This document shows, piece after piece, positions 2,165 to 50,400 of a DNA stretch of 64,000 nt (the first letter of the stretch is position 1; each line of letters begins with the position of its first letter). The notes under the pieces were generated by a model. That model was not told the DNA's origin. It saw nothing but the letters and a program-made list of their open reading frames with translations, and did no database searches. The position numbers and the translations under genes are program-made. The DNA comes from Theobroma cacao (Eukaryota; Streptophyta; Magnoliopsida; Malvales; Malvaceae), in contig NC_030851.1 of the NCBI RefSeq assembly GCF_000208745.1, positions 4,111,916 to 4,175,915 on the forward strand, given 5' to 3'.

Positions 2165-2607
2165 TAACAAGTCACTTAATCTATCAACTCCCAGTTTGGC
2201 GAGGTTATCTGCTATCTATTACCTATCCTCGGAGTATATTGAATCTGCCAGCCTGCTACTTTGCCTTTGAGTACAATGATTTGAAATATCAAATGTCGAG
2301 GTTTCCATGGAGCAGCCTTCGATTTGTTCATCCAAGTGACGGCGTTACTAGAATCGCTTTCAATGATGAGGTTCAATAAGTTTGCCCATAAGAAAAGCTG
2401 CATGGTCATCACCTCCCGTATCGCCAATACTTTCGCGAGGTTGGCATCCCCATCCAGTCTTCTGGGAAAACAACAGTTTAAACTCCCCTCATCATTACGT
2501 AGCACCAATTCAATCCCAAAGTTTCTCGAGCAGTCTCTGGTAGCACCATCCGTTTTAAATTTGAACCAACTTTTAGATGGTCTCTTCCAAGAAACAGTCT
2601 TCTCCAT
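2165..2607 (-). pseudogene. RNase H-like (RVT_3) remnant of a LINE-type element
   Basis: The minus-strand reading has the order of the plant RNase H-like domain found at the C-terminus of non-LTR retroelements and their relatives: FKTDGATR (first Asp), a VLRNDEG strand, a helix with AIREVM, then IIESDSSNAVTWMN (further acidic residues), and a final R-I-G-N segment. The closing AD-x-LAK motif is present (ADNLAKLGVDRLSD, about 2165-2210) but in another frame, separated by a stop, so the copy is dead. No reverse transcriptase is seen next to it. It is an isolated fragment. Confidence 0.7.
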
Positions 2608-4600
2608 GGATTTCCTCGAAGTAGACTCACGTGCAAGGAAAAGGCATACACAATGTCCATGTTGGATCCATCAACATTTGGTCACTTGGACTTGACTCAC
2701 CATATAATTCTTATTTTAATAACATCGAAAACTTGCTTGGCATTTCACAATTTCTCGTCAAAAATCATTTCGTTTCTAAAGAGTCAAAATTTTCTTAACA
2801 ATAGTACTTAGGGTCTATATGCATTTAAACTTGAGTTGATAAAAAAAGTTACTTCACTAGGGTTTATAAATACTGATTAAGGATAGTTAAATATTAATTA
2901 AAAATATTACATTTAGTGTACTATTGTCATTAAAATTTGGAAAAAATAATACACTAATTACAATTGTTTTCTTGAGTATCATCCCTAAACACTAATTATC
3001 ATTACCCTTCATAGTAAAAAGTGAGATTTTCTGATAAAAGAAAGCCAAGAGAAATTGTCTGAATGAGATCTGTCTTTCTTTTTCAACTATTATGTCAGCA
3101 TTTAAAGACCGAAATGATTGGTTAGTTGGCTGTTGCAACTAAGTAAAGGACAGACCCATGTGAGCTTGTCAAGCTCGTTTTCGAAAGAAGAGTGAGCTTT
3201 TCTTTTCTCCTGTTTCAAACCTAGCCAATGAGTAGGGTCACAAGTCACAACTCAAATGTATGGTCACAGGCAATGCCCAACACCATCTTTTCTTTTTCAC
3301 CTCCATCATATTTACGCACAAATAAATATTTATCTTTTTAATTATATTTAATTAAATTTTTATATTTTAATTTTAAATTAAACAAATTTTTATAATTAAT
3401 TATTAATTAATATGATATTTATTATTTTTATATTTATATAATAATGATATGACGTTAATATGAAAAATAAAATTATCATACAATCATGTAATTATATTAC
3501 GTGACTATTAATTATGACATGTCAATTACACATAAATAAAAAAATCATATGTCATTTGATTAGAGACGGTAAATAAATTATTAATTATAAAAATTTATTT
3601 AAAAATTAAATTTTAAAATTTTAAAAAAATATTATTTTTTTAAAAAATATATTTTAATGATAAATTTTTTTTTCAATTATCTTACTTTGATAAAAAATTT
3701 TGATAAATGTAAATATTAACATGCACTCGAACATTTAACTCATTAATTGATACATAATTTTTCTACTTAAAAAATAAAATTTTAATCTTTCTTTCTTTAA
3801 TTATAAAAAATATATATATATTTTTAAAAAATATAAATAGTAACATGCATTAAAATTAGAAAAGAACAAAGTGAAATACGCAGCGAGTATTTTCCTTTTT
3901 AAAAAACATGATACACGTTTTATGAAATTATTGTTTTTTTTAGTACTTTTTTGTGTCGTATGAACAGTAACAATAGTAGTAGGCAGGTTTCAGGAAAAAG
4001 CCAGTGCTCTCACAAACACTACAACCATGTCACAAAAAGTCGGTAGGCAAACACACAATCAATTTAGAACAAAAAGTCAAAAAAAGAAAACAAACTAATC
4101 AAATTTGACATAAACAATAAAGTATTCTTTAACATGGCAATCAAAAGATTGACATAGACGATAATCATGTTGATGTTAGATATCAAGTTACCTAGGTTGT
4201 TTTAGCCCAAGAAAATTATTAGTATTACTGTTCCCAAGAGCAGGGACAAGACACTTGAAGGAATGGGGTTGGTTTAAACCAGTATTTGTTCAAGGAGCAT
4301 CATAAGAAAAGGGTCAGAAGGATTCCATTCTGATTTGCACCGAGGTTTAAAGGACAGAAATCAGCCACGAGCATTGAAAGGGTGTCTGAACCAGGCGTGG
4401 TAGCTAGAGAATGTGGGGCTCTCTATTATTTACTTTTCCTGCTTTTACGTCCTGGAGCCATCAAGATGTCCTTCATTTCCTGCACAACCTTCATGATGTT
4501 TTTTAACTTATTCAATTGATTTAATTGAAATTTTCAATAGTTGGTAGGTAGGCAGAGCCGTTCTATTTTCTTTGTTTACCAAAAAACAATGTAACGAAGT
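2608..4600. other. AT-rich intergenic region
   Basis: No coding region is recognised. The stretch is very AT-rich and includes one copy (about 3338-3630) of a dispersed inverted-repeat family listed separately. The segment 4200-4600 is less AT-rich but shows no family motif. Confidence 0.6.
3338..3630. repeat. MITE-like inverted-repeat element, copy A
   Basis: The left end reads as AT-rich sequence running into ACAAATTTTTATAATTAATTAT. The right end, reverse-complemented, runs AAATAAATTTTTATAATTAA, so the two ends pair. The middle has ATGAC/GTCAT words (ATATGACGTTAATATGAAA) shared with the copies near 10.2 kb and 36.9 kb. No coding capacity. Borders are approximate because the ends are low-complexity. 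Confidence 0.5.
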
Positions 4601-4756
4601 CCCACTTGCGGTGGAGTTGCTTCCTCCTCCAGATATTGTCCATACATGTCGTTTTCTTTACTCCTTTGGTGTTCGAAGTTGCAACGTTTATACACGGTCT
4701 CACAAGTATTTTACCTAACTCAGCTTTTCTATCTGATGCGACATGTGGAAACGAGA

Positions 4757-5095
4757 AATCATTTGACCAAGAGCGAGAAAGAAGAGGAAGAGGTCATAGT
4801 TGTCCATGGAATTGAAGTGAAAGGAGACGCATATGTTAAGTTTGATGTGTATGTGAATGTGGTTGATGAGACAATAATGACTCCAAAGTTCAGGGAATTT
4901 GCAGGTACCTTTGCTCACATCCCCGGTGGTGGGGAGATGATGAAGAGGAAGACCGATCTCAAATTGGGCGTGTCGGAACTATTGGAAGATTTGGAAGCCG
5001 ATCAAGATGAAACCATTTGGGTAACATTGTTACCTAGGACGGCAAGCTGTAGCAACGTCACAATTGGCGGGGTACGAACCGAGCACATCAGATAA
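4757..5095 (+). pseudogene. Polyphenol oxidase C-terminal (KFDV domain) fragment
   Basis: The reading ends in HGIEVKGDAYVKFDVYVN, then FAGTFAHIPGGGEMMKRK and WVTLLPRTASC, which is the PPO1_KFDV domain. It closely matches the C-terminus of the intact PPO gene 10 kb downstream, and the similarity continues past the stop into the 3' UTR (TTCATGTCT and a later GGAGAT stretch). Similarity begins near 4757. The tyrosinase copper domain and DWL domain are absent, so the fragment cannot be an oxidase. A weak resemblance near 4665-4715 to the PPO exon 1 end (GCAACGTTTATACACGG) hints that the fragment came from a deletion copy rather than a clean break. It is a truncated relic of the local PPO duplication. 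Confidence 0.85.
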
Positions 5096-13539: not shown

Positions 13540-15409
13540 ATGGAGAAGAAGAAATGGATTCTTACAGTTGTGTTAGCCCTCATCGTGGCAATGCTGCCTT
13601 TGACTTTTCGAATCCTGGAATCGCATCAAGTTCAGCGTTTATATACGGGGTACTTTATGCAAGTTTTCTTCCTTTTTCTCGCATTGATTTGTCACTTAAT
13701 TAATAAATGTATCTTAAAAACTTATACATGACGTGTGAATCCAATTCTATCTTGATTTTTGTCTTTTTTTCCTATCAGATCTCTTTGATCTGTAACAAGT
13801 CCTTACTTTTGATTTCTCCAGGGAACTAACAGACATGATACTCGGAAAGCTGGGAGGCCGGGCTTCCAGTAACCACGACCTTAGCACAGACAAGGCTGTA
13901 GCGAGCAAATTTATCGCCCCGAACTTAACAGCGTGCCACCCATCATATGGTCGTCCAGATCTTCTTGTTCACTGTTGTCCTCCGGGGTTTGAATCGCCAG
14001 TGCCCTTTGTCGATTTCCAGTTTCCTGATCCTCAATCGCCAAAACGTGTGCGCAGGCCAGTCCAACTTGTGGACGAGAACTACATCGCCAAATACAACAA
14101 GGCTTTGTCGATCATGAAGTCCTTGCCATACGATGATCCTCGAAGTTTTGCCCGTCAAGCCAACTTGCACTGTCTCTTTTGTACTGGAGCCTACGACCAA
14201 CAAAACTCCAATACCCCTCTTAGTATTCACAGAACATGGTTATTCTTTCCCTGGCACCGCATGATGATCTACTTCCACGAACGCATCATCGGTAGTCTAA
14301 TCGGAGATGACACGTTTGCTTTTCCGGTTTGGACTTGGGACATCCCTGAAGGAATGGTGATGCCGGATATTTACGCGAACATGAATTTATCATTCTTTCA
14401 CAAGGTACGTGACTTTTCACATTTTCCACCGCGGGTGGCAGATTTGAACTACTTCGAGGAAACAAATTTGAGTCCTCAAGAGCAGTTGGATACAAACTTG
14501 GCATTTATGTATAACCAAATGGTATCTGGTGCAAAGAAGACGGAATTGTTCATGGGATGCACATATAAAGCCAATGAAGGATATTGTAATTCACCCGGCA
14601 CTGTAGAGAGTGCCCCTCACAACACTTTGCATACATGGGTAGGGAGCAATCTAGAACCTGGAAGGGAGGATATGGGTAAATTCTACTCAGCAGCAAGAGA
14701 CCCTATTTTCTATGCACATCATTCCAATATAGATCGTCTTTGGGAAGTTTGGAGGGAGATTCATAAACATGAATTGGATATCAAAGATCCAGATTGGCTA
14801 AACTCTTTCTTTTTCTTTTATGATGAGAACTTGAAGCTGGTAAAGATTAAGGTTCGTGATGTTCTTGATATCTCCAAACTTGGTTATTCTTACGAGGAGG
14901 TCGATCGTCCGTGGTTGAATAAACGTCCCACGCCTTCAGTTCCGCCAAAGGTAGCCCGTCAGATATTAAAATCGAAAGAGAATGAGAACCAATTCCGACT
15001 GTCCTCTGATTTCGGGCCCCATGGTCGAGCTCTAGACGCTAGCTTGACAGTAAAGGTTAACAGGTCTAAAAATCATTTGACCAAGAGGGAGAAAGGAGAG
15101 GAAGAGGTCATAGTTGTTCACGGCATTGAAGTGAAAGGGGACGCATATGTTAAGTTTGATGTGTATGTAAACATGGTTGATCAGACGATAATCTCTCCAA
15201 AGTCCAGGGAATTCGCGGGGACCTTCGCTCACATTCCTGGGGGTGGGGAGATGATGAAGAGGAAGATCGATCTCAAACTGGGAGTGTCAGAACTATTGGA
15301 AGATTTGGAAGCAAAGGAAGATGAAAGCATCTGGGTCACATTGTTGCCAAGGACAGCAAGTTGTAGCAGTGTAACAATTGAAGGAGTACAAATTAAGTAT
15401 ATCAAATAA
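13540..15409 (+). CDS. Polyphenol oxidase with N-terminal signal-anchor, two exons
   Basis: Binuclear copper enzyme oxidising o-diphenols to quinones. Exon 1 is 13540-13649, exon 2 13822-15409; the intron (GT at 13650, AG at 13820-13821) splits a Gly codon and gives 565 aa. CuA ligands: His153 in HCLFCTGAYD (Cys for the thioether bridge nearby), His173 and His182 in HRTWLFFPWHR. CuB: His303 and His307 in HNTLHTWVG, and the HHSNIDRLW pair near 336-337. The DWL domain starts at about 360 and the KFDV domain has KFDV at 481-484. Residues 1-37 start MEKKKWILTVVLALIVAMLP, a basic stub plus one hydrophobic segment, which looks like a signal peptide or anchor rather than the usual Ser-rich plastid transit peptide with thylakoid signal. 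All copper ligands are intact, so it should be active. The second ATG at 13835 would lack the targeting segment. A 5' UTR intron (about 13171-13281) is possible. Confidence 0.92.
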
Positions 15410-19121: not shown

Positions 19122-21286
19122 CTAGCAAGGTGGAAGGTCCTTGGGAGGAGGCAAAATGGATTGATCTGGTCCCTTTCCATTCTCCACCACAAAAGCTGTC
19201 TTCAAACCCCAGCCGGTATGGAGCTCCAAATGACAGTGCATGAACCAAACTCCTGAAGAATGAAAAGAATTGGTTTAGACTGTAGAGGATTACTATTATT
19301 TTTTCGTTGTTTTAAATTGCTTTCTTTCTAATGCCATGTTTATATTGAGTTTCTGGTGAATGTACCTGGATTATCAGCCCTGAACCTTATGGCGGTCCAC
19401 CCACTGGTCGGTACTCCAACTGTGTTTCTTTCAGGAGGGTCAACCAAGTTAAATTTAGCTGGGTCTTTTGCTGGGTCAAAGTTCCCGATTCCAGTCCCAA
19501 CGACAAAGAAATTGTAACCATGAAGGTGGAATGGATGGGATTCAACAGTTAGAAGATTGGTATCCTGTAGCACTAACTCAACTGTGGAATTGAAAGCAAT
19601 CTTGCTTAGCCTGGTGCCTAAAGTAGTACCAAGATTGGCAGTCAATGGAGCACCAGTGTAATTGAAAGGTTTAGGAGGGCGGTCAGGGAAATCTGTTCTA
19701 AATACTCCCTTGACGTTGAAATATTGAGCTTGAAGAAGGCCAATCTGTGGCATAACAAAGGTAATGTTGTTCAAAGATGCAGTGAGTTGTGTTCCATTCA
19801 GGCAAGTTGCACATGGGTTGATTCCTAATCCAATTGTGTAGAAGAGATGTCTGTCAACTTTAAGGGGCACATTTGCTGGGTATTGTGGAGAGTTTAGGCT
19901 CCTAAGTTTGGCATTGTATCTCAATGCAAAAGCTGTGTCATTTGGTGATGGTAGCTGAGGAAGGATTGGGAGGACAGTGTTTGGAACACCTTTATATTGA
20001 AGTATAGCCGTGGCGGTTTTGTTGTCTACGGTCAATGGTGCATCCATGAAAGGCCTAGCCGCCATGAAATATCTACCAGGTGCTTGGGTGGCTTGAACAA
20101 GAACATTTGTGGTCTGCCCTGGTGCAATTAGAATTGCTTGTGTAGTAAACGGTTTAGAATAAACTGCATCTATTTCTACCACCGTCATATTGTGGCCAGC
20201 AATGGCAAAGAAAAGTTCATCGTTGAGTGCAGCGTTGATAATTCTCAAGAGATAAGTCTTTCCTTGTTCTACCTCCATCGCAAATGTATCTGCAAAAGAA
20301 AAGAAAAAAATAAGAATGCAAGGCCTTGTATGCTGAATCCAAAAGCCGGTGCTAATACTCCGTTGAAAAAAAAGGCTAAGCTTACATTTCTCAGAACATG
20401 GGAATAATGGCCCTGGTTTTCCATTAATTGTGTGAGCATCAGATGTATTTGGCGGTAATCCCAGCTTGTTCCCTTGTTTAACAATCTCTTCAACATCGTT
20501 ATTCCACCATTCACCTGCGCCAAGTACAAGAATTATGGAAATATTAACACGTTAATTGTCTAATTAAAATAGTCCCACCAATACGGAACAATTCACCCCA
20601 CCTAAAATTATGTTAGTTTCCCTGTAAGGTTGAGGAAAAGGGAATGGGGTCCCCTGTTTTGGCATGATTACAATTGCACCATAAACTGTTGCTCTGAGCC
20701 AAAAGATATGTGCATGCCACCATAGAGTTCCTCGTTGACCCGTTACATTAAAATCGTACGTGTAACTGTGCCCTGTCTGGATAGGGCATTGTGTTATAAA
20801 AGCTGGTCCATCTGCCCATCCATTGCGAAATTGTTTCAGTCCATGCCTGCCATGACAGAATCGTATCAACAAAGCCCAATAATTGACTTCATGACATGAG
20901 AATCGCATTTTCAAAAGAAATGATGCATTTCCTACCAATGAATGGACATGTTATATTGGGCGTAGTTTGCGACATTAATGAGAACTCTGTCGCCTTCTCT
21001 CGCGTATATTGTTGGCCCTGGAAACATCCCATTGACTGTAACAACAGGTTTAGCATGGCATAGCCTGCTAACATTTTTCACTTGAATCTGAAAGAACAGA
21101 AAGCCATATTATCATTAAGAATGAAAATAAATTCAGCTAAAAGGTGAATACAACATGCCATGGATTCAATAGGCCTACATCGAATTGGTATCTTCTCACT
21201 GCTGCATCTGCAGGAAGAGAAATGAAGCCAACTAGATAGAGGAAGAAAAAGAATGACCCCGAGCAGAAAATTTTGCCTACTGCCAT
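19122..21286 (-). CDS. Laccase (plant multicopper oxidase), six exons
   Basis: Apoplastic p-diphenol oxidase; plant laccases polymerise monolignols or other phenolics. Exons on the minus strand: 21286-21179, 21087-20936, 20846-20602, 20514-20386, 20289-19366, 19252-19122. They total 1,689 nt with matching phases, giving 562 aa. The N-terminus [20 protein letters not shown] is a signal peptide, likely cut after ADA (about 28). Copper motifs: HWHG (86-89), WWHAHIFWL (His131, His133), HPFHLHGY, and [12 protein letters not shown] (525-531 plus axial Leu). Several N-x-S/T sites fit a secreted glycoprotein. The last exon ends [11 protein letters not shown]. The sequence resembles the LAC4/LAC11 side of the family more than LAC17, but I do not assign a subfamily. 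Exon 5 contains a near-perfect miR397 site. No disruption seen. Confidence 0.93.
20220..20240 (-). promoter_or_regulatory. miR397 target site in laccase mRNA
   Basis: The plus strand here is nearly the miR397 sequence itself: it shares GTTGAGTGCAGCGTTGAT, 19 of 21 positions overall matching the remembered miRNA. The laccase mRNA (minus strand) is therefore complementary, with one A:C mismatch at miRNA position 3 and a G:U pair at position 21. Positions 9-12 are perfectly paired. The site encodes the conserved INAALND segment. miR397 cleavage of laccase mRNAs is established in several plants. Confidence 0.88.
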
Positions 21287-21919: not shown

Positions 21920-23634
21920 TCAGCCACTGGTAATGGAACCGGGGCGCCTTTTGAAATTGGTTGGTGCAGGTCTAAGCCAAGCTCTCCCTCCAATCATGTC
22001 CATAGTCAAGAATGGTGCAGCTTCATTTTGTGATAGGCGGTGTGACCACTGAACCCTCTTTGATGCATCAGCTCCAGGTCCATAGCACTTGTATTCACCA
22101 TAATACGCAGTCCTGTCATGCAAAATAGAAAATGTTACTAAACCAGTAAACATAGATAATTTTAATTTTCAAGATTAGCTGATATATATATGTACCTTTG
22201 CTTTCTTGGGTCTTGCCAGTCATCCCATCCTTGTGGGATTATCACATTGGACATGTAGGTTTCGGCAAAGACTACCCGAGAAAAAGCACCCCACGGCCTT
22301 CCAAGGAAAGCAGCACCAATGCCAGTGATCTTGCAACCCAAGAAAGTGAAGCCGGTATTCTCTGAAGGTGAATTCCTATGTTGAGCAGTGATAGATCCAC
22401 TTTTTGTTGAAAGGGAATGCAAATGGCATCCCTACAAGGAGATAAAAGTCGTATCAACTTGTTAGTCATCCTTGAAAAATTTTTACTGCTAAAATTTTGC
22501 CATTTAAATTTGTCTCTTTTAGACAATGTAAAGCACTCACTTCATAAAAGGACGAAGCATTTCCACATATGAAATCTGTGCCTCCTTCAATGTAGCAATT
22601 TTTGAAATAATGCTTTCCGGTATCATCCAGGAGAGTATCTTGATAGGAGAGAATCCTGCATCCATAGAATGCAGCTCTGTCTCCTGATACCCTCATTGCA
22701 ACAGCCTTGCCACCCGTCCCAAATGTGTTCTACAGCCACAAATTCATTTCATTAGAATTTGGAGGTAAATCAGCGAGCTTAGGGGTAATATCAATTGATT
22801 GTTCGACTGAAATGGACTTAAATTGTGTTGGGAATATACATCAATTTTTATGTTGACTAAAATTTGAATTTGTATCAGAATTGCATCCTTGACAAACATC
22901 CTGAATGGCCTACATCCCTACAAACAAAACCTATTTATTTCAGACTGGTGCCCACAGAACATGGGAGGAAGTCCCACACAAAGCTCCAGCACTGTTTAGA
23001 GGCGCATCATATGCTGAATTTTTAGATGAAAAAGAAAGAGAAGAAAGTGAAGAGACTAGCAACAGCTCTAGGAATTGTTTATACATATAAGCCAACATAT
23101 ATAGATACCTGAATTGTGAGATATTGTCCAACAAAGTCAGAGGCCAATACAGTGAGCGCTGCAGAATCAAATATCCCCCCGCTCTCATTCCATGTTACTA
23201 TGGTGTCTTGGGCCCGAGTGCCACTCAATGTTATAAATGGCTTATCAGCAGGCACAACAATCTTTTCCCTGCTCAATGAAAGTTCAAACAAAACAAAGAG
23301 TTAAAAAGTCTGAAAAAAAAAAACAAAAACCATCTCAATTAGCCCATCAAGTTGTAGTATTTAGCTATAAACATGGTCATACACCCACACGTTACCTGTA
23401 TGTCCCTGGCTTAACCAAAATGAAGTAGAGTTCAGAGTTATTAGATGGAACAGCGTCTATTGCATCTTGTATCTTCTTAAAGTCCCCATGGCCAGCCTGA
23501 TCGACCCTCAAAAGAATGGCGGTAGACATGTCTATGGGAGCTTTGGCAGCTGCGTTAACCATAAGAAAAGCAAAAACAACTTCAAATAAAACGATAACAA
23601 TATTAGCATGGCTACAAATATTCATTCCTGCCAT
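21920..23634 (-). CDS. Pectinesterase without PMEI pro-region, five exons
   Basis: Cell-wall enzyme removing methyl esters from homogalacturonan. Exons on the minus strand: 23634-23396, 23268-23109, 22729-22541, 22431-22196, 22112-21920. Their sum of 1,017 nt encodes 338 aa with matched phases. The N-terminus (MAGMNICSHANIVIVLFEVV) is hydrophobic and secretory. Family motifs: VDQAGHGDFKKIQDAIDAVP, VKPGTYREK, YQDTLLDDTGKHYF (Asp164), GGTDFICGNASSFYE (Asp185, usual DFIFG here DFICG), and AFLGRPWGAFSRVV (Arg241, Trp243). The length and lack of an inhibitor-like pro-domain put it in the short class, like Arabidopsis PME11. I chose ATG at 23634 rather than the upstream in-frame GTG. The intron after exon 2 is 379 bp; other introns are 83-128 bp. 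Confidence 0.92.
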
Positions 23635-25170
23635 GTGCACTTGTGATGACTTCCTTCGTCTCGATGGGTGTGCAGGCCGGGAACTAGATTAAAATTCAAT
23701 CAACCTATATGATTTTCTTGTAAAGGAATAATGAAGCAAAGTTACACAATTTTGACTGGTTAATTAATAACAAAGGGGGCCTCATTATATAGTATTCTCA
23801 AAGCTAGTTTCTTATGTAATTATGGCAATAATACAGATTATAAGATAAATCATTATAATTATATTAGATCACGATATTATTATACTACGATAAGATTAAT
23901 TTAATAATATGGTAATTATTTATATATTTAAACATTTAATTCAATAATAAATGTATTTTTTTTAATTTAATAGGGTCTAGCTACCCTATTAAGATTTATT
24001 AATTACGAAATAAAAAGTATAAATGAGAGGATATAAACCGTACCTCCAAGTTACATGATTGTAAGAAAGTTTTGAAAAAATACTTAGAGTATGGAAATCC
24101 ATTTTACATGTATAACTTTTGATGATACAGTAAAACAGATATTTCCTACTATTACATTGAAATAATATATTAAAATAAAATTTAAAATAGAAAATATAAG
24201 TAAGAAAAGCACTTAGAATGAAGTGTTTCATTTTATGACAATAATTTATACTATCGTCATAAAATTGAAACACTTTCATGTTACAACACAATAATAAATG
24301 TATGTTTTCAATTAAAGAATCTAATTTTAGAATTTTATAAAACCATTCAGCCAAAGATTTTGAACTGTTAGATGGAAAGTTGACATGTTTGGCAATATGA
24401 GTGTTAGCTGATTACTTTAATTTAATCCCCGACAGGATTGGTATACTTGAACTGGAAAAAAGTCATCGGATAAGCAACTAAGGACAAATGAATTGAACTA
24501 GTAGTACTATTTAGGTAAAGGCTCCTGCCCTAAAACCCGGGGGGCGGGAGTCGACCATGACAATTATATTTTACTTGGTGGTAATTACAAGTTGCTATAC
24601 TTGTTTTATTCCTTAAATCTTTTCCTCAAACTAACAAGTAATTATTTGTACAGCTAAATAGTTAATCCTTACATGTTTTTAATTAAGAAATCAATATCGA
24701 ATCTTTCTCATTCCATAAATAAACACACAAAAATTATTATCGAACCAACTAATGGAGTCCAATTAATTTTTGAAAGTTTTGGGCCTCTCTAGATTATGCT
24801 GATTGTGAGCTACAACCTTATCTGGAGTCGAATCCAGCTCAGCTTTGAGACCTTGTTATATAATCTTATCAAATGGAGTTTGTAACATAATTATGGCAGT
24901 TATCTAGATTATATTTTAATTTAATAGAATTATTATGTGAGATTCTGATATCATTAAATTACGATATGAATAATTTAATGATATCATAATTATTTATACA
25001 TTTATATATTTAATTCAATAATAAATGCATCTTTCTGATTAAGGAATCGACTTTGAATTTTTTTCACTTCATAAATTAAAAAAAAAAACAATAATGGTTG
25101 AACAGAATCCGTCCCTACACCGAAAACTGATTGGGCCAACTAAGGGAGCCTAATTAATTTTTGAAAGTTT
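23635..25170. other. AT-rich intergenic region with a direct duplication
   Basis: No gene recognised. Around 23820-23960 and 24885-25030 the sequence shares a low-complexity motif (TTTAATTCAATAATAAATG), and around 24685 and 25050 a longer direct duplication is visible (listed separately). Confidence 0.5.
24685..24845. repeat. Direct repeat, left copy
   Basis: Shares TTAATTTTTGAAAGTTTTGG and the following GCCTC...CTGCTGATTGTG-GCTACAA...TGA/CTGGA-TCGAG-CCAGC order with 25050-25235, about 370 bp away. The right copy lies in the candidate snoRNA promoter. Confidence 0.7.
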
Positions 25171-25235
25171 TGGGCCTCACTTTGATTCTGCTGATTGTGG
25201 GCTACAATCTGATCTGAATCGAGCCCAGCCTGGTT
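25050..25235. repeat. Direct repeat, right copy
   Basis: Second copy of the segment at 24685-24845, with an insertion before the shared block. It contains two of the TGGGCY motifs of the promoter described below. Confidence 0.7.
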
Positions 25236-25334
25236 TCCAGGGCCCAGCTAAAACCCGGAGTACTTTTGATTGGCATTTTCGTAATTAGAGTCAAGATACC
25301 GGCGATAAATAATAGCCAAGTTCTGAAACCCTAA
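25171..25334 (+). promoter_or_regulatory. Site II + telo-box promoter of snoRNA locus
   Basis: TGGGCC at 25171-25176, TGGGCT at 25198-25203, AGCCCA (reverse TGGGCT) at 25222-25227 and GGCCCA at 25241-25246, followed by the telo-box AAACCCTAA at 25326-25334. This pairing is the known signature of plant ribosomal-protein and snoRNA gene promoters. Transcription would start shortly after the telo-box and run into the snoRNA candidate about 145 bp downstream. Confidence 0.65.
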
Positions 25335-25478
25335 CAACGAAACTGGTTCAGCTTCAAAACCAGATCTCTTCTTCCCTTCCTCTGCCAAAATCAAAAACTC
25401 TAGCCTTTATCTTTATCAGTTTCCATGTTTTCTGCGTTTTTATTTTGCTTATTTTGAGGATTTAATGTAGAAAGAGAA

Positions 25479-25573
25479 GGTGCGATGATGATTATAGAAA
25501 TTAAATCTCGTTAATCTGATTCGTAACATGAGGATGAACTTTTTCATCCATTCTTAAACGTCTTCTGAGCGTC
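25479..25573 (+). ncRNA. Box C/D snoRNA candidate guiding 25S rRNA methylation
   Basis: Boxes in correct order and spacing: C ATGATGA (25485-25491), D' CTGA (25516-25519), C' AGGATGA (25531-25537), D CTGA (25565-25568). GGTGC before box C pairs with GCGTC after box D (two wobbles) as a terminal stem. The 12 bases just before D' (AATCTCGTTAAT, 25504-25515) are fully complementary to ATTAACGAGATT, a conserved 25S/28S rRNA segment. ATCCATTC (25546-25553) is complementary to GAATGGAT, which directly precedes and overlaps that segment in the rRNA. The D'+5 rule predicts methylation of the fifth base, A, of ATTAACGAGATT. The rRNA sequence is from memory. Promoter context supports a real gene. No other full C/D set was found in the next 450 bp, so it may be monocistronic. 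Confidence 0.75.
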
Positions 25574-25757
25574 ATCTCTTTCTTTTTTTGGTGCTTCTGG
25601 TTTTTCCCCTGTCCCTCCTTTGTGAGAAAGAAATCATTTTTATTTGCTATTCTTTGTGGGATAATACAAACATTGTTTTAGCTTTAAAAACTTGTGTTGA
25701 AATGTCATGAGGATTCCATTTTGTTAATCTTCTGCAAATTCTGATTTTTCGGCTTGA

Positions 25758-25910
25758 ATGGGGATTAAGTGTTGTAGCATTAAGGAACGATACGATTCAG
25801 AAATTATTATGAGAACTGAAACATTTGGGATCGGTTGGAAAGTATGTGAGAAAAGTTTTGCAGATTTCCTACATGAATTAGAGGCCAATGTGTTGAGCCA
25901 GCCGATCTGA
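25758..25910 (+). other. 50-codon open frame downstream of snoRNA
   Basis: An ATG-started frame MGIKCCSIKERYDSEIIMRT... ending in TGA at 25908-25910. No family recognised and no splice context seen. It may lie in the snoRNA primary transcript. Likely chance, but recorded because the region is not AT-rich like its surroundings. Confidence 0.15.
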
Positions 25911-27610
25911 CGGGAAAGCTCGAGCCCATTGCTGCAGTCGCTGGGCCTTACAGTTGAAGAGAGGTCAACCAGGACCTGCTTTTTTGCGCCTTCAAGCCGA
26001 AAGCATTGCGATTTAAAAACTTTAGAAATTTGATGAACAAAATTTTATAAAAATAATTAAAATTAATCCAATGTATGTTAAAATTGAACATGGTTAAATT
26101 TATTATATTAACAAATTCTATCAGTTTTAATTATTAATAATATTAGTAATACTTTTTCTATATAAAATATATCTAAAAGTTTTTGTTCAATATTCCAATA
26201 ATATTTTATTAATAAAGTCTATATGTTTTTAATTTATTTTTATTTATTAAAAATATTAAAAATATTTGTATATAAAAAATATATAAATTAGTGATTGAGT
26301 TTTTTATTTGAAATTATACAATAAATTATCCTTCCTAATTGATTAACACAGAAAAAAAAATTAAATCGAAATGGTCAAATTCAATCCATATAAATTAATT
26401 ATTTAAAAGTTAATAAATACTTGCGCAAGAAGAAACGCCAGGTTTTTATTATTGTTCCTTCTCAAAATTTCCAATGCATGAAATGTATAACGTAATGACA
26501 TCAATAGTTTAATCTTTAAACTTTAAATATGATGATATTTGAGTTTTTAACTTATTAGTTGATATATAATATTTTATCTAAACATTTAATTTATTGATTG
26601 ATGCATAATTTTTTATTTAAAAAATAAAATTTAAATTCCTTCTTTTAATTTTTTTTAAAAAAAAACTTCAATATGATGATATTAATTAATAGTTTGGCGA
26701 GTCCAAGTTTTAGCCATTGTAGCCACCACCAACCGTGTAGTAGCGGTCCAGCAATGTAATAAAACAATTACATTATGGGCTATGAATCTACATTTCTAAA
26801 ATATACATGTAAATGTAATGGATGAATTTTCTGTATTTTTCTTTGAATTTTAGAAAATGAAATTTCAGCTTCTTATTTTCTAAGTGAATATATTTGTTTA
26901 CTGCTAAAGAAAATGAGAATGGTTTCAGTTGGTGGCAGAGTCAAGCTAAGAAATGTTTACAAGTCATAATTCATGAGAATTAAACTTTTCGGGTTGGTTG
27001 AAACTTGAAAGGAAACTATTTTTCCTTGAGAAAGAGGAAATTAAAGTAAATATATTTTGAAAAAATTATAAGTAGAATTCTTCCACAATTTCAGACAGAG
27101 AGAAGGGGGTTAATAAGTTTTTCAAAAGTTTTAAAATTTTATAATTTTCTTTTACTTTTTAAAAAATTATATAATTTTATCTTTACTTTTTCTTCAAAAT
27201 TTTATAATTTTATTCTTACAAATGTAAAATTTTTTATATAATTATTTTAGCAAGCCTGTTTGCTCGAGCCTATTAACGAGACCCGATTTGATTTGCTTAA
27301 TGGATGGTTAAAACCGCAGAACAACGGGCTGCGCCATGTAACGAGTAACGACTCGTGTGAATCCGATGGATCTATGACTTTTCGAGCCGACGACATGGTT
27401 AAAAGTTCAAACACGTAACTTTGTCTGGCGGCGACACCAAAATCCTACTAATCAAAAGGTTGGGTCTCGTATTTCATCCAATTTCCAACCCATCAGAACC
27501 AAAACCAACCTCCAAAAACAGGACATAAACCAAAGCTTAGAACACAAGAACTCAGGAACGAAATCCTTTTTTCTTTTCTTGCGGAAATCATTTTGGAATC
27601 AATCAACTTA
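25911..27610. other. Intergenic upstream of USP gene
   Basis: AT-rich DNA without a recognised gene. A perfect inverted octamer AATGTAAT-aaaaca-ATTACATT lies near 26754. The last 150 bases are the likely promoter and 5' UTR of the USP gene. Confidence 0.45.
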
Positions 27611-29799
27611 ATGGATACGGTTTTGGAAGATGAAGAGTACAGTTACAGAGAAGTAAAGTTGCCAACGTTGATCCCAATAGTTCCAGAGCCAGGGTTGGAG
27701 AGGGAGTCAGGGGAGAGAAGGAGAGGCAGAGATATAGTAATAGCAGTTGATCATGGTCCCAACAGCAAGCACGCCTTTGATTGGGCGCTTATTCACCTCG
27801 TCAGGCTTGCTGATACCATCCATCTTGTTCATGCTGTTTCCAGTAAGCAAAATATTTCGTGGTTATTTATTGGAAAATAATCAACAATGAGATTACTCTA
27901 TAAGTTGTTTCTCAAAATTATTTTCTGGGTTTTCTTTTAATAGGCGTCAGAAACGAGATTGTTTATGAGACCAGCCAAGGGCTTATGGAGAAGTTAGCTG
28001 TGGAGGCGTTTGAGGTTGCCATGGTTAGTACTTTCTTTTTTCTAATCCTTGTTCTGTTTTATGATTGCTTAAAGAGGTGAAATTCTGTGGTAAAATCTTC
28101 GAGGTTGTGTGCCTTGTCCAGCAAGGGAATATATTTACCTTCTGTGTGAACATTTTAACATAGGCTGATCTTAGATGCATTCCATTCTCTGTCTATGATT
28201 CCAAGAGATGAGTACATTGCTTGTGATCAGCAGATTACTTAATTTTCTAAGGGGAAAAAATGGGTAACTAAGTTTATATAAAGATAAATGTAATCTTTAC
28301 GTATTTATAGGTTCATAATGTAAAATATAGGTTGATTAGTTCCATTTCTAAAACTTTTTCTTTGTTCTTTGGACACACATGTCTAAAACTTGTAATGTGG
28401 CATTTATAGGGAAGTTTGAATGTAGATCAATAACCATCACCATCCCAATTTTTAAACTATGAATTGGTTGTCTATTTGCATCTTTAACTTTTAAATTGAT
28501 ATATTTTGATCACTTATTGTTATTGTTTTATTCCATATCGGTCCATTTTCAATATGCAAATTTTCTTTGAAGCACTCTGTCAAAGATTAAGGTATTCCAT
28601 GGTTAGAGTTATATATGTTAAACTTTATGTATGATAATTTACACTTGACTCAAGATTTATCATAGTAGTAATTTAGAATTCTGATTTATGATTTGACAAC
28701 CGAAAGGATACTAATCAAATTAAGTGGTAGGATTCAATGCACTAAGATCCTCCTCTTCCTTAATTTATTACTTTCAAATGAATGAGATTCTGAATGTATT
28801 TTGCAAACCGAATAGCAGATCTAATTTTACCTGTCATAAGATTTAAGGTTACTACATAGGTTTACATTATTAAGTTCACGTATAATATTGGAATCAAACC
28901 CACTTTATTAGATCATATTATGAGCTATAATATTGTCTCTTTATTAAGATCAAATTAGCTTAACCTGATTTAAATAAAAAATAAATTAAATAATATAAAT
29001 CCACATTTTAATTATTCAAGGAAATTGAACAATTCAAAAGTATATGTTGATCAACATGAACAGAAAAATTGAATTTTTAAGGAACATGCTAATTAAAGTG
29101 CAATCATCAATTAGTTTTCGCATCAATGCACAACAAGTTTAGGATGCAATTGGATAATTGACTCCAACCTCAGGGTGGTGTTTTATAGTCAACCCTACCT
29201 TTGCATGTCCACTTCAACTCCAATGTAGCTTAGAGGGTCAACAATCTTTTCTTTTTTCTTTTTTTTTTTTGGTTTTGAAAATGGTCAACAATCATTCAGT
29301 GTTTGGTTTCAATAACGGTAAATTGTTCTGGAATTAGGTGAAGACTACAGCTCGAATTGTAGAGGGGGATGCAGGTAAGGTTATTTGCAAGGAAGCAGAA
29401 AGGTTGAAGCCAGCAGCAGTGGTTATGGGAACCCGTGGCCGAAGCTTAATACAAAGGTTTGCTTTCCCCTTTCCTACATGCTACATCTTTCTATGTGGAT
29501 GCTTGTGCTTGTGTTACTTTGCCATTCTACAGAATAACCCCCCTTGTTTCCTTGCTCATCTCTCTTCATATTTATACTACTTTTAATTTGCAGTGTTCTT
29601 CAGGGAAGTGTGAGCGAGTATTGCTTCCACAATTGTAAATCTGCTCCTGTCATAATCGTTCCTGGGAAAGGTACTACTATTTCTCTAATTGATAGAATCC
29701 TTCCATATCATTTCGTTTACTTTATCCATTGGAATGATTCACACAGTTTTCTTTTCTACCCTTAACTTGGCAGAAGCTGGAGATGAATCACTGATATAG
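27611..29799 (+). CDS. Universal stress protein (USPA-like, ATP-binding type), five exons
   Basis: Exons: 27611-27842, 27944-28023, 29338-29456, 29594-29670, 29774-29799. They sum to 534 nt and 177 aa with consistent phases. A 40-residue acidic/basic leader (MDTVLEDEEY... to RRRGRD) precedes the domain. The domain starts DIVIAVDHGPNSKHAFDWAL (conserved Asp of the first strand) and runs through VHAVSS to VVMGTRGRSLIQ. The nucleotide-binding signature G-x2-G-x9-GS is complete: Gly135, Gly138, then Gly148-Ser149 across the exon 3/4 junction. The domain ends with APVIIVPGK. Intron 2 is long (1,314 bp). Plant proteins of this type are usually cytosolic or nuclear stress-response proteins; the precise role is unknown. 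I prefer ATG at 27611 over the in-frame TTG at 27593. Confidence 0.9.
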
Positions 29800-47068: not shown

Positions 47069-47208
47069 AGCCCATTTTTGACCCATTAAGTTTAAAGCCC
47101 ATTTTGAGCGGGTTCAAGGCCCATTTAGAATATCGAGTTCCTTATCTCAGCCGAGAGTAAAATGGGCCTGTTTAATGCCCAAGCAAACGCTGTTAAACCC
47201 TAAACCCT
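47069..47208 (+). promoter_or_regulatory. Site II cluster + double telo-box promoter of AATF gene
   Basis: AGCCCA at 47069-47074 and 47096-47101, GGCCCA at 47118-47123, TGGGCC at 47163-47168, and the extended telo-box AAACCCTAAACCCT at 47195-47208, about 205 bp before the ATG. This is the signature of plant ribosome-biogenesis promoters and fits the predicted function. Confidence 0.8.
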
Positions 47209-47413: not shown

Positions 47414-50400
47414 ATGGGGTTATCTTCGAAGCGACGTGGAAAAGCTGGAGGCAAAGATGTGGCCTTGGAGGACTTCGATGATTCGGAAGATGAGGAATTA
47501 ATGGTTAATGGGGATAGGGAAGAGGAAGAAGAAGAAGATGATGATGAAGAGGAAGATGAAGAAGAAGAAGTTGATGAAGACAATGAAGAAGAAGATAGCG
47601 ATGAAGGAGAAGAGGAAGGATCGGTAGAAGAGGACAAAGATGGTGAGATGGAAGAACTTGAAAAAGAGTACAAGGATCTTCACCATCATGAGCAGTAAGC
47701 ATTCCCCCTTCAAGTTTTTTCTTTTTCTCTTTTTAAATTTATTCTTGTATTAGCACATTAGATATTTGGTGCTTCCTTCGCATTTCTAATTTTATAGGTT
47801 AGATTGGAATTTGGTTAGTTTACTATACACATTAACAGATTTTGGGTGTGGGAACATTTTGAGATGATTGAGTTTGTTTATAATTTAATCAATGTCGCGA
47901 CTTTCTTTTTACAATAAATTCGAGAAATTCTGTTGTAGAATTGTGTGGAATCAGCGAAGAGTTTAATTTTATAGGTAAAATTATGTTGTTTCTGTAAGTT
48001 TCCTATTTTATTTTTATTTTTGGTTTTCATTTAGAGACATACTGAGGAATCTTAAGCGTCATAAGGATGAAGATATTCAGAAGGGTCAAGCAGTGAAGAA
48101 CCAAAAGGTAGTCTAATCTTTCTTTGCATTATATAAACTTGACTCTGATGGCGTTTGGCTTTCCATCGTTACGAATAACTATTATTGAGTACTGTGATCA
48201 AGGTTTCCATTTACTTTTATAGCTATCTTGTTTTTTTGGTTGTGTGCTGCTATCAACTTGCTTAACCTTCTCCTTCTTTTGCCAAGGCTCTCTGGGATAA
48301 AACTCTTGAGTTTAGATTCTTACTTCAGAAAGCATTCTCCAGTTCAAATCGACTACCGCAGGTACCCTTTTGTTCCCTTTTTGTGTCTTTTGTGTTCTTT
48401 ACTGGATTGGAATATCTTGTTTATTTATTCATATAGGATTTATGTGAGGGCTTTTCTGTCAGGACCCAGTTAGGTCTTCATTTTGTGCTGCAGATGAAGC
48501 AGTCAATGTTGCATATTCAGACCTTATTACTTCATCAAAGAGGACTTTAGATTCTTTATTGGAACTGCAGGAGGTATGGCTGTTCTCAAGAAACCTCTTG
48601 CCTGCTTATTTTCTATCTTATTTGCTTATAATATTTGACTAGTACTTGATTAGTTGTTGTGGATGTGTTAATGCCTTTAACTACCTTACCATGAAATTCC
48701 TTTTCCTCTGATTTTTTCTCTGTATTACTATCAAATTGTCAGGCTTTGCTAGAGAACAATCCATCAATCGCTCAATCTGTAGATGGTATGACACTGATTG
48801 CTTTTGTCAAATTTTATCAATATGCATCCTGTCACTTGACAGAAGCTTTATTTATATTATTTAAATGTTAGGAGCTTGATTCTCCTTGATAGTTTTGATA
48901 CACTGCCAACATCATGTGTCATGCTGTGTTTAGTTTAAGTTAATAGCTAATCTCAATCTTCTATTGATTTTAATCACATTTATCGTCTACCTCAGAAGTT
49001 CCTCTTTCTTTCAATGTAACTGAGTACTTAAATATCTATCAATTTATAATTTGACTAGATGATTATATAAACATTTAACGTCAAACTGCCAACAACTAAG
49101 CATGCACATTATGGATCTTGATAATGCTCTTATTGTCCTAACCCATGTCCTGTGCTTAAGGTAATGCTGTTCAATCATCTAAGAGCCTTTCCAGAGATTC
49201 TAAAAACTTGGACACGGAAGATGATGAAGAGTGGTTATGGATATCTCAGATGAATAGGAGGTATCTCCAGCGGTTTCTCTTTTGCTCAATTCAAACTGGT
49301 ATTTTCTGTTAAAATAGAAATGCTCATATGATCATATTCATTGGCTAAAGCGAATCTTGTAGAAAGAATGAGGTGGTTTAGCCTTTAACTGAAATTACTG
49401 AGGTGGCTGCTTTAGCCTCTTTTCTGATGTGTTCATTTATTGATCAATGCCATATTTCTCAATTGATTGTTCTTGGAGTGTTTACCAATACTATTCCGAA
49501 TATGCTCTAGATTCTTTGAGTTGTGAAGTCTACGTTTCCAGGTTGGACATCTTTAAATTAATATTTCAGGAGATGCTTTGCTGAAAAGAGTATAAGCCAT
49601 AATCTGTTACAGACCGTTTTATGGAGTCTTCTTGAAATTGCTAGGTTCAAAAATGCTGCATTGAGAATGGTGTGTTGATGCCCAGAGGCTCGCATCAGTG
49701 CATTAAGGAACATTCACAAAATTGCTTTTATGGTTTTGATAAGCTTAATCATGTGCTTTCTGCTTCCTTTTTTTCTTCTAAATGTTGTGTATCGTATTTA
49801 ATCCTCACTTGCTACAATTTTCCTTGTGCAAATAATATTTCTTGATATGAACATTTGTAAGTTAACTGGAAATCTCAATGCTTGAATCTTGTAGAATAGC
49901 AGCTTTCAGAGATAAAGCAGTTGACAAATGGCAGAGAAAGACAGAAGTCACAACTGGTGCTGCTGCAATCAAAAGCAAATTGCAAGCTTTTAATCAGGTT
50001 TGCTCCTATAAGTGATAATGAATCCATGCCCTATAGGATGTAAAATGAATCTCACTTTGCTCTTCCCTTCCAATGCCAGAACATTAGTGAACAAGTTGCT
50101 GCCTATATGAGGGATCCAAGTAGAATGATAAAGCAAATGCAACAAAGAAGATCAACCATTGGCATATTTGGGCCTGTAAGCTACTATACTTACCTAGTTT
50201 AGGGGTGCTGAATTTACGTAAAACATTAGACACAGCTCTGGTGCTGGTGCGCTCTCTGTACTGTGATTTTTTTTTCTGTTTTATTGATTACCATCTCATT
50301 GGGCAGGTTACTGAGGGCACTAAAAATGCTAATGGAGAGGTAATTTTTTTTTTCATTTATTTTAGTATAGTCTTGAATATATGAACTGGTGTTTCTATTA

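Follow-up and report, generated by a model that had tools for sequence, protein, structure and literature searches.

U30, which occurs in plants and animals alike, is a box C/D snoRNA that guides a single methylation of the large ribosomal RNA, and its family is already catalogued. The plant family, RF01283 (snoU30 or AtU30, clan CL00052, Am2311), has been tabulated beside human U30 (RF00088, Am3804) (PMC3511168). A RiboMeth-seq table for Arabidopsis names U30 as the guide for the methylated A2322 of the 25S rRNA (PMC8053127), and we take Am2311 to be A2322 in older numbering. According to the same source, extra pairings of 7-15 bp accompany 45 of the 104 assigned Arabidopsis sites, with a median guide-to-extra gap of 30 nt (PMC8053127). 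Work in yeast describes an extra pairing of snR13 that overlaps the guide region and enhances modification, and mentions such an overlap for several single-site snoRNAs, whereas the extra pairing of U18 played no role (PMC5389607). Telo-box and site II elements are reported as the promoter pair of plant snoRNA and ribosomal-protein genes (PMC4660826). U30 is named among snoRNA genes in a paper on cotton (PMC11222342), and was not found in the main text of the plant snoRNA papers PMC5122169, PMC8351944 and PMC7464842.

We analysed a stretch of 64,000 nucleotides from Theobroma cacao (the window), in which an earlier note had proposed a candidate box C/D snoRNA and had suggested an Rfam search. 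A covariance-model scan of the whole 64 kb revealed a full-length match to RF01283 snoU30 at 25481-25570 on the forward strand (59.1 bits, E 2e-8, model positions 1-86 of 86), above the gathering score of 45 bits that this family requires. It is the sole gathering-level Rfam match in the window. The next-best family in a scan of 161 bases scored 22.5 bits against a threshold of 41, in a comparison that keeps only the best match per clan and hides weaker families of the same clan, including any RF00088 score. The Rfam alignment shows no difference from the RF01283 consensus in AAUCUCGUUAAUCUGA or in AUCCAUUC, the second letter of which is given there in lower case (less conserved); conservation is judged throughout from the Rfam consensus and from papers. 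With the full-length match and all boxes in place, the candidate is borne out, and the locus is almost certainly a gene for the methylation guide U30. The observation is real but known: the locus adds an ordinary member to a family that is already catalogued and whose target has been published. The earlier reading had recognised the C/D snoRNA, its D' guide, a possible extra pairing and the promoter, but had missed the identity with U30/RF01283 and its published status.

Table 1. Coordinates of the U30 gene, its internal elements and the promoter motifs upstream, numbered within the window.
Feature	Position	Strand	Remarks
Five site II elements TGGGCY	25132..25246	+ at 25132, 25171, 25198; - at 25222, 25241	five per 250 bp
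Telo-box AAACCCTA	25326..25333	+	one of five in the window
Box C/D snoRNA U30 gene with short terminal stem	25479..25573	+	RF01283 match 25481-25570
Box C ATGATGA	25485..25491	+	aligned to Rfam consensus
D' guide AATCTCGTTAAT	25504..25515	+	complement of 25S ATTAACGAGATT; selects A at target position 5
Box D' CTGA	25516..25519	+	read in the sequence
Box C' ATGAGGA	25528..25534	+	sequence and Rfam consensus
Putative accessory (extra) pairing segment ATCCATTC	25546..25553	+	complement of 25S GAATGGAT; same letters in RF01283 consensus
Box D CTGA	25565..25568	+	read in the sequence

Boxes C, D', C' and D follow one another in the order that had been claimed, within 25485-25568 (+), and are enclosed by a terminal stem (Table 1). 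This stem comprises 2 bp in the Rfam model, and 3 more pairs, 2 of them G-U, can be seen by eye outside it. The stability of the whole-RNA fold is unremarkable, with a z of -1.08 and 27 of 200 shuffles folding as well.

The guide adjoins box D' and occurs only once in the 64-kb window. The 12 of 12 match to 25S rRNA that the earlier note had reported is present as complementarity, with a guide duplex of -12.6 kcal/mol, and the target stretch is contained in a printed plant 25S primer, the grass qPCR primer GCATGAATGGATTAACGAGATTC (PMC3292489). Its complement is carried by the avocado primer AATCTCGTTAATCCATTC, which its source labels 18S and, in another row, cytochrome P450 (PMC3233532), and also by a 28S primer used in myxozoan work (PMC9402732). 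Counting back from D', the fifth base of the guide is a U whose partner is the A at position 5 of ATTAACGAGATT, and the D+5 rule supports the earlier choice of this A as the selected site. The guide is identical to the family consensus and, with its target in the plant 25S primer, fits the LSU rRNA site assigned to U30. Methylation of that site and its assignment to U30 are taken from papers on other species, and Arabidopsis A2322 would correspond to the A of ATTAACGAGATT by virtue of the shared U30 guide; the numbers A2322 and Am3804 come from these papers rather than from an rRNA alignment. An identification of the site with yeast A2280/A2281, the targets of snR13, was rejected because the Arabidopsis table assigns A2282 to U15 and A2322 to U30 (PMC8053127).

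The second segment, ATCCATTC, pairs at 8 of 8 positions with 25S GAATGGAT, which makes it a second antisense stretch near the target of 8 bp, where extra base-pairing calls for at least 7 bp. It is separated from the guide by 30 nt (25516-25545), the same as the Arabidopsis median. The rRNA partner of this segment had been placed directly 5' of the guide target; the complementarity stands, but the two partners in fact overlap by 2 nt. The 12 and 8 pairs therefore cannot all form at once, and the contiguous rRNA bases covered by both duplexes number 18 at most. The 8-bp duplex with rRNA, at -8.7 kcal/mol, is a weak contact, and the segment occurs four times in the 64-kb window when both strands are counted. 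Among 10,000 dinucleotide-shuffled versions of the D'-D spacer, 61 contained an exact Watson-Crick run of 8 bp with the 12-nt 5' flank, which includes the two overlapping bases and covers the 5' side only. When G-U pairs were allowed, 1,784 of 10,000 such shuffles reached 8 bp against this flank. When the letters of the 95 nt were shuffled, the exact 8-mer itself arose in 40 of 20,000 cases; for any exact 8-mer lying up to about 20 nt away on either side, the chance is roughly estimated at 0.037. The earlier judgement that the pairing is improbable by chance thus applies to exact complementarity, but it loses much of its force once G-U pairs are counted; the accompanying statement that extra pairing boosts methylation in yeast agrees with the report on snR13, but not with that on U18 (PMC5389607). 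On balance, we consider that ATCCATTC probably has an accessory role in U30.

The segment also has a potential partner within the RNA itself. In the minimum-energy fold, box C' and half of ATCCATTC, namely the AUCC that is able to pair with box C', are brought together in a 7-bp hairpin, GGAUGAA:UUCAUCC (25532-25549). Folded alone, this hairpin reaches -8.3 kcal/mol, similar to the value of the rRNA duplex, and a shorter form of it, with 5 bp, arises when the letters GGAuA/uAuCC of the Rfam consensus are folded. As both the rRNA pairing and the hairpin are possible, the conservation of the segment has two potential causes. The locus might thus be a real U30 gene in which ATCCATTC does not act on rRNA and its 5' half is kept by the C' hairpin or by descent, an explanation that departs from the preferred one in the role of ATCCATTC only. 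Its place in the minimum-energy fold and the five pairs formed from consensus letters speak for such a hairpin, yet it would hide box C', which the assembled RNP presumably requires. Moreover, the 3' half of the segment, AUUC, lies outside the hairpin and is nevertheless written in capitals in the Rfam consensus. The frequency with which shuffled spacers match the flank when G-U is allowed and the absence of a role for extra pairing in yeast U18 (PMC5389607) favor the hairpin explanation, whereas the rarity of exact complementarity among the shuffles and the commonness of adjacent extra pairs in Arabidopsis (PMC8053127) argue against it. We regard this explanation as possible but rather unlikely. 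At 25536-25545 the window has a G-C pair where A-U would be expected from the Rfam consensus letters; should the hairpin be real, this would count as a compensatory change. A further proposal, that ATCCATTC is a switch, appears far-fetched: the AUCC of free U30 would pair with C', and binding of 25S GAAUGGAU would free C' and so complete the C'/D' methylation centre only on the right target.

The preferred reading, a working U30 gene, is also consistent with the sequence upstream. The site II/telo-box promoter described in the earlier note is indeed present: the five site II elements form the cluster with the highest count in the window, and the telo-box stands 146-153 bases before the snoRNA. 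TeloSII genes have been defined by a telo-box AAACCCTA and a site II element TGGGCY within 1 kb (PMC4660826), and the U30 locus is a TeloSII snoRNA gene by this definition. Site II elements number 51 in the window, an enrichment that 0 of 100 shuffles reach, whereas the 5 telo-boxes are not enriched (15 of 100 shuffles reach that number). Of the five telo-boxes, only those at 25326 and 47195 have a site II element no more than 400 bp away, and it is the co-occurrence of the two motifs that is telling.

The second cluster of site II elements and telo-box is located at 47069-47202. Downstream of it lies an acidic ORF, 47414-47698 (+), which starts with MGLSSKRRGKAGG and which we take to resemble an AATF/Bfr2-like ribosome-biogenesis protein.

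Three ORFs of at least 60 aa are listed for 23500-28000, and the snoRNA is overlapped by none of them. The surroundings include a pectinesterase-like piece at 23392-23640 (-), below the Pfam cut-off with 21.2 versus 27 bits, and a universal-stress-protein-like piece at 27593-27880 (+), with 24.2 versus 24 bits. Neither a second snoRNA at the Rfam gathering level nor a tRNA was found near the U30 locus, which thus looks like an independently transcribed single gene; it could instead be intronic to a non-coding host transcript. Farther away, the window contains a polyphenol oxidase ORF with tyrosinase, DWL and KFDV domains (13796-15409), and a C-terminal stretch closely similar to it by eye, perhaps a broken tandem copy (4595-5095). 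A laccase-like multicopper oxidase ORF with Cu-oxidase and Cu-oxidase_2 domains occupies 19340-20551 (-), and an RVT_3 (RNase H-like) fragment, perhaps derived from a retroelement, lies at 2212-2670 (-).

Some annotated Arabidopsis snoRNAs were not expressed in a survey (PMC8053127), and the locus could by analogy be a non-expressed U30 duplicate, or pseudogene. This is improbable given that the boxes and the guide are all intact, that the score lies well above the gathering level and that a telo-box and a site II cluster stand upstream. Chance resemblance to a C/D snoRNA can be dismissed as vanishingly improbable: the box motifs are short and the bare 16-mer of guide and D' occurs in 52 viral and at least 118 prokaryotic stretches, but TGATGA lies within 30 nt upstream in 0 of 170 of these loci among the matches listed, and the covariance-model E value holds for the scan of all 64 kb. 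CCATTC follows within 70 nt downstream in 7 of the 170 viral and prokaryotic 16-mer loci among the matches listed, and the rRNA pattern had no matches in viral contigs. We also searched for a second, degenerate U30 copy. In the window as a whole, the best local alignments scored 15 (+) and 14 (-) against 13-18 in 20 shuffles; in the 500 bases downstream, the score was matched or beaten in 264 of 500 shuffles. The idea of such a copy was rejected.

Transcription, processing and any accessory effect in Theobroma cacao may be inferred as follows. The U30 gene would have its own promoter and be transcribed from the telo-box and site II elements, presumably by RNA polymerase II. Its transcript, once cut back to about 90 nt, would assemble with fibrillarin and the core C/D proteins. 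Pairing of the stretch upstream of box D' with 25S ATTAACGAGATT would then direct 2'-O-methylation to the A that lies five bases from D' (A2322 in Arabidopsis, Am3804 in human), while ATCCATTC probably adds a second, partly overlapping contact that may help to hold the target.

For the annotation of the cacao genome, the gain is one well-supported copy of U30 whose promoter can be recognised. Little of it is new: both the family and its target site have been published, and adjacent extra pairing has been described as a general feature of C/D snoRNAs in plants. The conserved accessory stretch of U30 may either aid methylation or compete with box C'.

The closest known system is RF01283 itself, which the cacao locus matches over its full length, with the same boxes, the same D' guide AAUCUCGUUAAU and the same AUCCAUUC segment. 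The cacao locus departs only slightly from this family, with 3 nt inserted between box C and the guide, 2 nt missing between D' and C', and another 3 nt inserted before box D. Human U30/SNORD30, the guide for 28S Am3804, belongs to the same clan and has an equivalent target, a likeness drawn from its listing in the same table (PMC3511168), but it constitutes a separate Rfam family. Yeast snR13, for which no homology is claimed, differs in that it targets A2280 and A2281, two sites instead of one and at another place in the rRNA. It is alike in action, with a D' guide whose region is overlapped by an accessory, methylation-enhancing pairing (PMC5389607).
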